Assembly: GCA_034044135.1 (NCBI GenBank)
Contig: CP139021.1
Location: 2,123,635 to 2,187,634 of the forward strand
From: Flammeovirgaceae bacterium SG7u.111
GTDB taxonomy: Bacteria > Bacteroidota > Bacteroidia > Cytophagales > Flammeovirgaceae
Direction of reading: 5' to 3'
Length of the DNA stretch: 64,000 bases
The position numbers and the translations under genes were made by a program. Below, piece after piece: positions 54,665 to 58,736 of this stretch (position 1 is its first letter; each line of letters opens with the position of its first letter). The notes under the pieces are model-generated. The model ran no database searches, had not been told where the DNA came from, and was given only the letters and a program-made list of their open reading frames with translations.

Positions 54665-56974
54665 TTAAAACTCCAAGCTAACCCCCAATACTACATTAAT
54701 ACCCAGATCATCGGCGAAATAGCGCCAGCGGTTGAGGTAGTCGCGATAGACTTGGTTAAGGAGGTTTTCCGCTTTGGCAAAGGTATTTAGCCTTACCGAG
54801 CCTAGTTGCTTTTCTGCCGAAACTTTTGCCCCCACCAAGTTATAGCCTTTTGGTGGCGGGGCGTAGTCTTGGGAAGGCAGCAGGTTTCTCTGTTCGAACA
54901 CGTACCTATTGTTGAGTTCTAACGTGATGTTTTCAAACCTCCCAGCCTTAGGCAGTATGTAGTTCACCGCCGCAAAAATATTATTGGATGGCATATTGAT
55001 CAGGGGCAAATCGTCCCCTTCGTTCCAACCTTTCAGGTAGCTGTATTTGAGCACGGCGTTGGTGAGGTCTGTAAATTTATAGGTCGCGGCAAAGTCTAGC
55101 CCATAAATCACCGCATCGGTCTGCTCGTATTTGAACACAGGAAATACCCCACGGATGGTCAACCTTACGGTATCTTGGGGATTGAGGTAAATGAAATCGT
55201 CTATTTTTTGCCAGTAAACCAAAGCATCCACCATCAACCTATTTTGGGAATTGGCCTTGATGGAAAATGTGTTTTTGAAAGAATTCTCTTTTTTTAGGTT
55301 GGGATCGCCTTCTTCTATTCCGCCCACCCCTTGGTGCACCCCATTGCTATACAGCTCATTCACTTCAGGGTTTCGGGAAGTCAAGCCAATGTTGTAAGCT
55401 AGCGTTACGCCCGGGCTTAGTTCATAGCTTGCCCCACCTGAGGCACTGTAGTTGGCAAAAAGGTTATTGTACCGAATGATTTCCCTCGGAACGGTTTGGG
55501 AAATAGCGGCAACCCGCTGCACATCATAATCAAACCTCCCCCCAAACTCTACAAACCACCTGTCCGAATCCCATTGGGTGATGGCAAACACACCTGTTTT
55601 GTTCGAAACATAATCTGGGATGAGGGGTAAAATCCCCGTTTCAGGCAGGTTTGTGTTGTTCACACTATTCAATTGAACACCTGTTTTTAGCAACCATTCA
55701 ATGTTCAATTCTTTCTCAAACTTAAACTCAAAAAAATGGCTGAATTGCTCTAGGCTCAAAGCAGGCATGTCTGACCGACCACTTCTTCTCACATCGAATT
55801 CTTTTCTCAAATTGAGCTGCCCAGCGTAGGTAAAATCAAGCATTGCCGTTTCGCCATATGCATAACCCGTATGGAATTTCACCAAGTGGTGATTCACTTT
55901 TTGGTACGGTGCAGAAATGTCGTACGAAAAATAGTCTTTGGTGTGAAAAGGCACTTCTCGCTCAAAAGCGTCCTCCGAATCGGTCAGGTTTCCGATATGG
56001 CTGCCCCTCAATATTCCAAGGTTCGAGTTGAAGGTGCTAAGGTACAATTCGGTTTTCCAATCGGGGGTAATCGACTTTTCTAGTTGGAGGGTAAAATTGG
56101 CTTCCTCGTGCCCCGTATTGGTCAAAAAATAATTCGGGCTTCGTTTGTCCCCACTTTTTTTGACAGTCCCAACCGCCCTCCAGGCCAACCATTTGTCTTG
56201 CTCAAGCTGCATGTTCACCCCGTGTCCTCTTCCGTTCGATTCGTAAAAGTAACTGCCCTTCCCATGCAAATGCGGCTCATTGTCAATTTCCTTAGGGTCA
56301 ATCATCACCACGCTCCCCAAGTTGCTGCCTTGGTACTCCAACGCCGCCGCTCCTTTCACCACTGTGAGCTTGTTTGCCGACCAAGGGTCGATTTCTGGCG
56401 CATGGTCTGCCCCCCACTGCTGCCCGCTTTGTGCCACGCCGTTGTTCAAAATAGTCAAACGGTTGCCGTACATCCCGTGGACAACGGGCTTGGAAATGGT
56501 GCTTCCCGTCCGCAACGTACTCACCCCGGCAATGCTCTCTAGCATATTCCCCAAGTTCTGGTTGGCATTTTCGGCAATCGTAGCCTCCCTTATCATCTGC
56601 ACTTCTTGGGTGGATTCCATCATCTCCATCCCCACTACCGACACCTCATTGAGTAAGCGAGTAGCTTTGGAAAGCCTGATCACTACTGAAGTATCTCCAT
56701 CTACTTTAAAATAAGCTTTTTGGGTTTCGTAACCGATGTAGCTCACAATCAGGTGAACATCTCCCTTGCACACGTTCTTTAGCTCAAAAGTACCATGCAC
56801 ATCACTCATCACCCCTCTTTTGCTTTCCTCAATAACAATATTGGTAAAAGGCACGTGTGTGTCCGAGCCTTGCTCTTGCACTACCCCCTTTATACTAAAA
56901 AAACAGTCCTGAGCAAAACTTAGCCCAGGAACTGCAAATGACATTAGGATGAATACTATATTTCTCAAATACAC
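54665..56974 (-). CDS. TonB-dependent outer-membrane receptor with CarboxypepD-regulatory domain
   Basis: 769 aa. Signal peptide (MYLRNIVFILMSFAVPGLSFAQ), CarboxypepD_reg domain (GVVQEQGSDTHVPFTNIVIEESKRGVMSDVHGTFEL), then a plug domain (ENANQNLGNMLESIAGVSTLRTGSTISKPVVHGMYGNRLTILNNGVAQSGQQWGADHAPEIDP, a pattern like ZnuD-type receptors). The beta-barrel ends in the aromatic terminus VNVVLGVSLEF. A likely Zn/metal substrate is inferred from the plug motif and from the operator of the adjacent lipoprotein gene. Probably cotranscribed with that gene 209 bp upstream. Confidence 0.88.
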   Translation of the reverse strand: MYLRNIVFILMSFAVPGLSFAQDCFFSIKGVVQEQGSDTHVPFTNIVIEESKRGVMSDVHGTFELKNVCKGDVHLIVSYIGYETQKAYFKVDGDTSVVIRLSKATRLLNEVSVVGMEMMESTQEVQMIREATIAENANQNLGNMLESIAGVSTLRTGSTISKPVVHGMYGNRLTILNNGVAQSGQQWGADHAPEIDPWSANKLTVVKGAAALEYQGSNLGSVVMIDPKEIDNEPHLHGKGSYFYESNGRGHGVNMQLEQDKWLAWRAVGTVKKSGDKRSPNYFLTNTGHEEANFTLQLEKSITPDWKTELYLSTFNSNLGILRGSHIGNLTDSEDAFEREVPFHTKDYFSYDISAPYQKVNHHLVKFHTGYAYGETAMLDFTYAGQLNLRKEFDVRRSGRSDMPALSLEQFSHFFEFKFEKELNIEWLLKTGVQLNSVNNTNLPETGILPLIPDYVSNKTGVFAITQWDSDRWFVEFGGRFDYDVQRVAAISQTVPREIIRYNNLFANYSASGGASYELSPGVTLAYNIGLTSRNPEVNELYSNGVHQGVGGIEEGDPNLKKENSFKNTFSIKANSQNRLMVDALVYWQKIDDFIYLNPQDTVRLTIRGVFPVFKYEQTDAVIYGLDFAATYKFTDLTNAVLKYSYLKGWNEGDDLPLINMPSNNIFAAVNYILPKAGRFENITLELNNRYVFEQRNLLPSQDYAPPPKGYNLVGAKVSAEKQLGSVRLNTFAKAENLLNQVYRDYLNRWRYFADDLGINVVLGVSLEF

Positions 56975-57782: not shown

Positions 57783-57790
57783 CAAAGATA
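57783..57790 (-). promoter_or_regulatory. -7 box of the lipoprotein-TonB receptor operon
   Basis: Minus-strand TATCTTTG (plus CAAAGATA), 35 bp before the lipoprotein ATG and an exact TAnnTTTG match. Operator 1 (57800-57814) lies directly upstream, between the -7 and -33 positions, where a bound repressor would exclude RNA polymerase. Confidence 0.6.
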
Positions 57791-57799
57791 AATACTAAA

Positions 57800-57814
57800 T
57801 GCAATAATGTTGCA
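57800..57814. promoter_or_regulatory. Operator 1: 15-bp 7-1-7 inverted repeat (Fur-family, possibly Zur)
   Basis: TGCAATAATGTTGCA, a 7-1-7 inverted repeat with one mismatch between half-sites, embedded in a longer palindrome (57794-57820, perfect 11-bp arms). It lies just upstream of the -7 box of the lipoprotein-TonB receptor operon. The 7-1-7 form is typical of Fur, Zur and PerR sites. Confidence 0.65.
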
Positions 57815-57830
57815 TTTAGTAAAAGGTTTT

Positions 57831-57845
57831 TGCAACATTATTGCA
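57831..57845. promoter_or_regulatory. Operator 2: inverted copy of the 15-bp repeat
   Basis: TGCAACATTATTGCA, the exact reverse complement of operator 1. The centres are 31 bp apart, about three helical turns, so both sites face the same side of the DNA and could bind dimers cooperatively. Confidence 0.6.
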
Positions 57846-57878
57846 TTTTATCTTTTTTAAGTAATGAGGAAAGGTGAA

Positions 57879-58736
57879 TTAAAGGCTATGGTATTTGCTT
57901 CGGTAAGTAGCAGGGGTAAGCCCTACAAATTTTTTGAATTGGCGGTGGAAAAAGGACATGTTTTCATAGCCACATTCCATGGCTAGTTGGTTGATGGAAA
58001 AGTCGGTGTCTTGCAAACCTTGGCAGACTTTTCTGATCCGGAATTCATTGAGGTAATGGGTGAAAGACTTGCTGAACTGCTTTTTGAAATACTTGCAGAA
58101 CGATACTTTGGTCATGAACGTCAAATCTGACATTTCTCCAATAGTAATCTTCCTAGTGAAATTTTGTTCAATAAAAGTGACAATATCTTTTACCCGATGG
58201 TCCGATTCATCCGTTTTGAGCAATTTTCCGCCAGACCCCGAAAGAGCTTTTACCTCCTTAAGCTGCGAGAGGCTGAGCAAAACCTCCATAAATGCCATTA
58301 TTTTTCGAGCACCTTCTATTTGGGGCAAGGCTTCAAGCTGCTTGCCTATCTCGGCAGTCTGTCCCGATTCTTCAAAATGCAACCCATGATCGGCTCGGGA
58401 AAGCAAGAGCCTGATGGGCTGGAACTCTACGATTTTATCTAAGAATTCCTCAAATATCTGGGGACTCCACTGGATGCAAATGGAAGCAGACCCTGCCGAA
58501 TATGTAGGGTCGTTTTTCCAAGTATGGGGCAACGAAGAGCCTAGTAACACCAAATCTCCGGGTTGGAAATTATCTATACTACTGCCTACATATCTAATTC
58601 CGCTGCTCTGGCGGATGTACGTCAGCTCAAATTCCTCGTGGTAGTGCCACGGTGCATCAAAATGATTGTTTTCGTAGAAAAAAGCATGGATCGAGCTGTC
58701 TAAGTCGTGGGGGACTAGTTCCAGTTTAGGCCGCAT
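57879..58736 (-). CDS. AraC-family transcriptional regulator
   Basis: 285 aa. The N-terminal cupin-like sensing domain has the histidine pair in FDAPWHYHEEFELTYIRQSSGIRYVGSSIDNFQPGDLVLLGSSLPHTW. The C-terminal two-HTH domain is KDIVTFIEQNFTRKITIGEMSDLTFMTKVSFCKYFKKQFSKSFTHYLNEFRIRKVCQGLQDTDFSINQLAMECGYENMSFFHRQFKKFVGLTPATYRSKY. This architecture usually responds to a sugar. It is divergent from the kinase-isomerase-aldolase cluster 128 bp away and is the likely regulator of that cluster rather than of the TonB receptor operon behind it. Confidence 0.92.
   Translation of the reverse strand: MRPKLELVPHDLDSSIHAFFYENNHFDAPWHYHEEFELTYIRQSSGIRYVGSSIDNFQPGDLVLLGSSLPHTWKNDPTYSAGSASICIQWSPQIFEEFLDKIVEFQPIRLLLSRADHGLHFEESGQTAEIGKQLEALPQIEGARKIMAFMEVLLSLSQLKEVKALSGSGGKLLKTDESDHRVKDIVTFIEQNFTRKITIGEMSDLTFMTKVSFCKYFKKQFSKSFTHYLNEFRIRKVCQGLQDTDFSINQLAMECGYENMSFFHRQFKKFVGLTPATYRSKYHSL

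Follow-up and report, generated by a model that had tools for sequence, protein, structure and literature searches.

A pair of inverted 7-1-7 palindromes as a probable double Zur operator at a lipoprotein promoter in a Flammeovirgaceae bacterium

Two inverted operators between an AraC-family gene and a lipoprotein gene

The window considered here, i.e. the whole 64,000-nucleotide stretch analysed from Flammeovirgaceae bacterium SG7u.111, contains an operator stretch with the end of an AraC-family gene on one side and a lipoprotein gene on the other; behind the latter lies a TonB-dependent receptor gene (Table 1). A first-pass annotation had proposed that two inverted copies of a 15-mer occur at this place, 31 bp apart centre to centre, with a -7 box directly beside the first copy. 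Both copies were recovered as exact matches at the proposed positions and spacing, and the -7 box, TATCTTTG, lies 35 bases ahead of the ATG of the lipoprotein gene, at a distance of 9 bases from the proximal copy. The centre of the proximal operator falls 17 bases upstream of the first base of TATCTTTG, and its 15-mer forms the centre of a longer palindrome that was absent from the earlier annotation. As 15-bp palindromes with 7-1-7 symmetry, both exact copies have a form that fits a Fur-family dimer. Promoters of Bacteroidota are of the -33/-7 type, and a sigma-70 promoter scan called no promoter at the operator site.

Table 1. Features of the operator stretch and its neighbouring genes (window coordinates)
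Feature	Position	Strand	Remarks
Operator 1 (proximal), TGCAATAATGTTGCA	57800-57814	.	Exact match; in the -33/-7 spacer of the lipoprotein promoter, at register +17 relative to the -7 box
Operator 2 (distal), TGCAATAATGTTGCA inverted	57831-57845	.	Exact match; 31 bp from operator 1
Longer palindrome TACTAAAT...ATTTAGTA around operator 1	57793-57821	.	13 paired bases per side
-7 box TATCTTTG (TAnnTTTG) of the lipoprotein promoter	57783-57790	-	Identified by sequence; TAnnTTTG has fixed registers to such sites
Lipoprotein, 187 aa	57184-57747	-	Lead gene behind the operators; without a Pfam or NCBIfam match; in relatives, its homologues lie behind the receptor
TonB-dependent receptor, 769 aa, distantly ZnuD-like	54665-56974	-	Plug and CarbopepD_reg_2 domains; NF038289 at 107 of 950 bits
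AraC-family gene	57879-58736	-	Ends 33 bases from the distal operator

Within the window, the two copies are the sole matches to the 15-mer when up to 2 mismatches are allowed, for an expected number of 0.29, and two or more such matches (inexact ones counted) arose in 5 of 100 window shuffles. Exact TGCAATAATGTTGCA does not occur elsewhere in the organism's 7.7 Mb genome (G000, two contigs), i.e. both copies are found in the window only. A chance origin of the operator pair was ruled out on the basis of these window shuffles and the genome-wide count of exact matches.

The operators had been assigned to a TonB receptor/lipoprotein promoter, and this assignment holds directly for the lipoprotein gene. 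The receptor gene lies 209 bp behind it, and no operator site was found in the 500 bp upstream of the receptor, this 209-bp gap included, in a scan with a site score cut-off of 8.5 that did not admit G at position 4. Among 29 receptor loci from the same order, with about 1.5 kb examined on each side, 19 have a lipoprotein homologue behind the receptor in the same orientation and none was found to have one ahead of it, so that the gene order of the window, from lipoprotein to receptor, is the reverse of that in relatives. In view of this reversed gene order, and as the 209-bp gap contains no site, the receptor is no more than a likely target of the operator pair.

The receptor plug had also been likened to ZnuD-type receptors. 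Like ZnuD, it is a TonB-dependent receptor, and ZnuD is its best NCBIfam match; the relationship is however distant, at 107.3 bits against a cut-off of 950 (NF038289), and the window receptor differs from ZnuD in its N-terminal CarbopepD_reg_2 domain and its lipoprotein partner. The low ZnuD score counts against the Zur reading. The predicted fold of the lipoprotein is beta-rich (mean pLDDT 83.7), and a comparison of this model to the PDB returned no match at E <= 0.001. Lipoprotein homologues in two other genomes (L045 and L046, from G003 and G007) carry long His/Asp/Glu-rich inserts that are fit for metal binding.

Recurrence of the motif before zinc-linked genes in the same genome

Across the organism's own genome, the pattern TGCAAN5TTGCA has 17 matches, against 5 for a reversed control. 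Eleven of the 17 have Y at position 6 and R at position 10 (TGCAAYNNNRTTGCA), and 9 of these 11 are intergenic, including one that sits inside a 122-aa reverse ORF taken as spurious. For the 6 matches without Y/R at these two positions, 5 are located inside ORFs, and some of the TGCAAN5TTGCA matches are chance occurrences. A looser pattern, TGCRAN5TYGCA, yielded 28 matches vs 19 for the control, and the additions were mostly inside ORFs, except for two before a Fur-family gene; variant sites TGCGACATTGTCGCA and TGCAATAAATTCGCA are found before the Fur-family gene L026.

The first-pass annotation had raised the question of whether the motif is scattered before non-metal genes. In this genome scan, 8 of the 9 strict intergenic sites precede zinc- or metal-linked genes or TonB-receptor units, which favours a Zur response. 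Two sites, 38 bp apart, lie upstream of a ZigA-like gene, which is followed by a second COG0523 gene, a MerC-domain gene, and a gene for a small exported protein. We use the label “ZigA-like” because this protein (L025:3737-4957), although a full-length best match to NCBIfam ZigA, scores 562.7 bits and thus below the cut-off of 600. Another site, with an imperfect partner 38 bp away, precedes a unit composed of an ABC ATPase, a TonB receptor, and two DUF3526 permeases, and single sites were found before a further TonB receptor, before a separate MerC-domain gene, and before a unit encoding a small exported protein, an ATPase, and an FtsX protein. The two TonB-receptor units (L012 and L024, one with the DUF3526 ABC-2 permease pair) are candidate new zinc-uptake systems. 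The ATPase-FtsX unit is reminiscent of the Vibrio Zrg operon, in which an ATPase, a permease, and a DUF3299 protein stand under a Zur-type site. Unlike in Vibrio, however, the small protein here is below the DUF3299 cut-off: the small exported proteins of the ATPase-FtsX unit and of the ZigA-like cluster are homologous to each other and reach 18.2 and 15.3 bits, for a cut-off of 22, and “Zrg-like” therefore denotes a resemblance only.

In other organisms, Zur is described or predicted to control COG0523 genes and Zrg operons (PMC2770081, PMC9817125). The same sources include paralogues of HisI among such targets, and the third gene, behind those for the receptor and the lipoprotein, encodes HisI (PF01502; phosphoribosyl-AMP cyclohydrolase, a zinc enzyme) in all 3 family genomes tested (L037, L038, and L042). 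Two results of the genome scan argue against a Zur reading. The one exception among the 9 strict intergenic sites, TGCAATAAAGTTGCA (L005:1501-1515), occurs with a TACATTTT box 76 bp before a PEMT/ICMT-like methyltransferase gene that has no known metal link, and no operator site was found before the two ZnuA-family genes of the genome.

This distribution also bears on whether the operators are bound by the neighbouring AraC-family protein, whose gene ends close to the distal copy. The same motif is however present at many other places in the genome and in relatives, and AraC proteins usually bind direct repeats rather than short palindromes. We consider such a local role for the AraC-family protein highly improbable.

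Conservation and promoter registers in relatives

A receptor homologue (E 1e-60) was detected in 15 of 18 family genomes, and a site is present within 500 bp upstream of the receptor in 12 of 14 family loci, the window's own locus excluded. A contig end truncates one of the two loci without such a site; the other, L059, has sites at a greater distance, next to a divergent Fur-family gene. For the wider comparisons, site score cut-offs were set at 11 for named ZigA-like loci and at 10.5 for order receptor loci, base counts, and registers; the shuffles used for the ZigA-like, order receptor, and register counts preserve base composition only, and related genomes are not independent. Outside the family, the palindrome was found upstream of the receptor (span of up to about 1.5 kb) in 24 of 29 order loci (the 29 being the top scorers among 89 matches in 88 of 118 genomes); shuffles gave a mean of 0.55. 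Named ZigA-like loci, taken as the best 80 of at least 593 and all Bacteroidota by name except L150, L173, and L212, display a site within 500 bp in 34 of 80 cases (shuffles: mean 0.12, maximum 2), with 44 sites in the 40 kb upstream vs 30 in the 640 kb of remaining sequence. The other 46 of these 80 loci lack a site within 500 bp, 18 of them having one further upstream, and this speaks against the Zur reading. Over 126 sites, the consensus is TGCAA(C/T)A-N-T(G/A)TTGCA, with the qualification that these sites were chosen by outer-base score, so that their base counts are no proof of the outer bases.

The position of the sites relative to the -7 box is restricted to a few registers. The set considered had 136 promoters: the window's own, 14 at receptor loci of the family and 29 at those of the order, 80 at named ZigA-like loci, and 12 at COG0523 loci; the COG0523 loci were picked out of 30 for having sites, hence the 90 of 136 promoters with sites do not represent a prevalence. 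Across the 126 sites of these 90 promoters, TAnnTTTG starts at -13 relative to the site centre in 38 cases, at +14 to +17 in 15, and at +23 to +27 in 31, compared to composition-preserving expectations of 2.3, 0.35, and 0.46, respectively, and to 5 cases at -13 on the other strand. In the -13 register, the first TG of the site forms the end of the -7 box, whereas the site covers the -33 position in the +23 to +27 register and occupies the spacer between -33 and -7 in the +14 to +17 register. The proximal site of the window, at +17, is in the spacer register, which also occurs in L232 and L235, two of the closest receptor relatives. With these fixed registers, the operator overlaps the core promoter. 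Where sites are paired, the spacing is 36–40 bp in 23 of 33 listed pairs, which fits a covering of both core elements. Whole helical turns were considered as a reason for this spacing and rejected, as the commonest spacing of 38 bp does not correspond to whole turns and a fixed distance to the -7 box fits better.

Conservation in relatives is also informative as to whether the inverted pair acts at the RNA level, either by ending the AraC-family transcript or by controlling read-through into the lipoprotein gene. As RNA, the whole operator stretch folds into one long hairpin (-25.8 kcal/mol, z -7.35, with 0 of 200 shuffles as good), which sits 33 bases past the stop codon of the AraC-family gene and received terminator-like calls on both strands. 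However, the tail on the minus strand, TTTATCTTTG, has no clean T run, and relatives keep a single 15-mer in fixed register to the -7 box next to other upstream genes, often with one copy only. The hairpin may have an added terminator function in this genome, but we regard it as very unlikely to be what the inverted pair is for.

Candidate regulators of the Fur family

Three Fur-family matches were identified in the genome, namely L021, L022, and L026. L021 is Fur-like, and L022 and L026 score less well with Fur models. The latter two contain the FUR domain (PF01475) at 45.4 and 42.9 bits, respectively, for a cut-off of 23.1, and two CxxC pairs in the alignment; their best PDB matches are a mixture of Fur, PerR, and Zur, and neither has an NCBIfam match at 1e-10. 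Given that sequence and fold alone cannot separate Zur from Fur or PerR, the Zur assignment rests on the target genes.

The clade of L022 (G000:C1:7565054) is found in 17 of 18 family genomes. In the tree it has 16 rows, each from a different genome (support 100/96); the G008 copy (L108) was merged as a duplicate tail, presumably that of L107, and the G014 protein is placed outside the clade. No operator site was found at the promoter of L022 itself, which argues against the Zur reading. L026 (C1:4218013) groups with one G001 protein (100/100), and both have sites at their own promoters. Members of a third Fur-family group are divergent from the receptor in 8 of 15 receptor-bearing family genomes, with sites in between. 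Fur-family genes are also present in 20 of 80 named ZigA-like loci; they occur within about 1.5 kb in only 2 of 29 order receptor loci, a further point against the Zur reading. Overall, the likeliest binder of the operators appears to be the L022 paralogue, and L026 could bind them together with L022 or in its stead.

A Cys after (Y/F)-x-x, which we take as part of Zur's regulatory zinc site, is kept in L026 and in ten aligned members of the L022 clade. It is absent from the G001 partner of L026 and from four aligned receptor-linked proteins (L054, L058, L059, and L061), which retain both CxxC pairs. Its absence suggests changed metal sensing in these receptor-linked proteins.

Alternatively, the sites could serve Fur (L021), the iron regulator, or a different Fur-family sensor (Mn or peroxide), with the TonB genes answering that signal. 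TonB receptors are often iron genes, and the genome does encode a Fur-like protein. The 7-1-7 symmetry, which the first-pass annotation had put forward as a Fur-family trait, is indeed common to the family (PMC6103462, available part). The recurrent neighbours of the sites, i.e. ZigA-like or COG0523 genes, HisI, and Zrg-like units, are however zinc-regulon genes elsewhere, and the linked Fur-family genes belong to Zur-like groups with two CxxC pairs rather than being L021-like. An iron, manganese, or peroxide signal is thus, in our assessment, unlikely.

A predicted Zur switch on a -33/-7 promoter

Our preferred reading, drawn from sequence comparison, is that the 15-mer pair is most probably a double operator for Zn-loaded Zur, which would cover the core promoter until a shortage of zinc clears it. 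The Zur-like metal response envisaged in the first-pass annotation is supported by the zinc-linked neighbours and by conservation before receptor and ZigA-like genes far outside the family. The model builds on computed features, namely the sites themselves, which recur before zinc-linked genes and are conserved, the fixed -7 registers, and the linkage to Fur-family genes, and we infer that the protein is Zur and that the signal is zinc. When zinc is sufficient, a Zn-loaded Fur-family dimer would sit on each 7-1-7 palindrome. Repression would be by occlusion, with the proximal dimer filling the -33/-7 spacer and excluding RNA polymerase, and the second copy would serve to strengthen repression through the distal dimer. 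When zinc is scarce, the protein would be released, and the lipoprotein, probably along with the TonB receptor by joint transcription, would be made to capture zinc.

Zur has been studied in depth in Proteobacteria, Firmicutes, and Actinobacteria. Zur boxes of other phyla (PMC6103462, PMC9817125; see also PMC4176598) are likewise Fur-family-dimer palindromes, with 7-1-7 among their forms, and likewise overlap core promoter elements and occur before COG0523, Zrg, and TonB genes. Unlike these, the boxes described here are placed on a -33/-7 promoter with TAnnTTTG, and the sequence TGCAAY-NNN-RTTGCA differs from the E. coli motif TRWNAYRWTATAWYRTNWCA and the Vibrio site TGAGTGTTATATTATAACACCCG given in the accessible portions of PMC6103462 and PMC9817125. 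The double-operator architecture is of a known kind, since double Zur boxes are known for B. subtilis yciC (PMC6103462, available part). According to the same portion of PMC6103462, both yciC and S. coelicolor znuA have two Zur boxes per promoter, of which one covers the upstream core element and the other the downstream one. The 36–40 bp pairs in relatives are comparable to these double boxes, whereas the window pair is unlike them, being 31 bp apart with its proximal copy in the spacer register (+17) and not on the -7 box.

The operator is thus ordinary in kind, yet we found no earlier description of it, or of any Zur box, for Bacteroidota in the open-access literature, RegPrecise and most subscription papers lying outside this search. 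None is given in the available parts of PMC6103462, PMC9817125, PMC2770081, PMC11960050, PMC6613475, PMC12574912, and PMC9976891, and a literature search with the text of the 15-mer returned no bacterial paper by title. The 15-mer switch that recurs before zinc-linked genes in many Bacteroidota is very probably a Zur site. As such, the motif would allow zinc-response genes to be predicted in aquatic, soil, and gut Bacteroidota, and its fixed -7 register provides a way to probe repressor action at a -33/-7 promoter. More tentatively, these sites could form part of a Bacteroidota-wide Zur regulon with its own code, TGCAAY-NNN-RTTGCA, used singly or doubly in a few exact registers to the -7 box and read by several Zur paralogues, among which the receptor-linked copies without the Cys could set graded or zinc-insensitive repression; this broader scheme is a possibility to which we give less than even weight.

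Finally, beyond the distal operator, TATCTTTT (57849-57856, plus strand) is one base off the -7 consensus. A divergent Fur-family gene is found in relatives at the side where TATCTTTT lies, whereas here this side leads only antisense into the AraC-family gene, and TATCTTTT is possibly a remnant.
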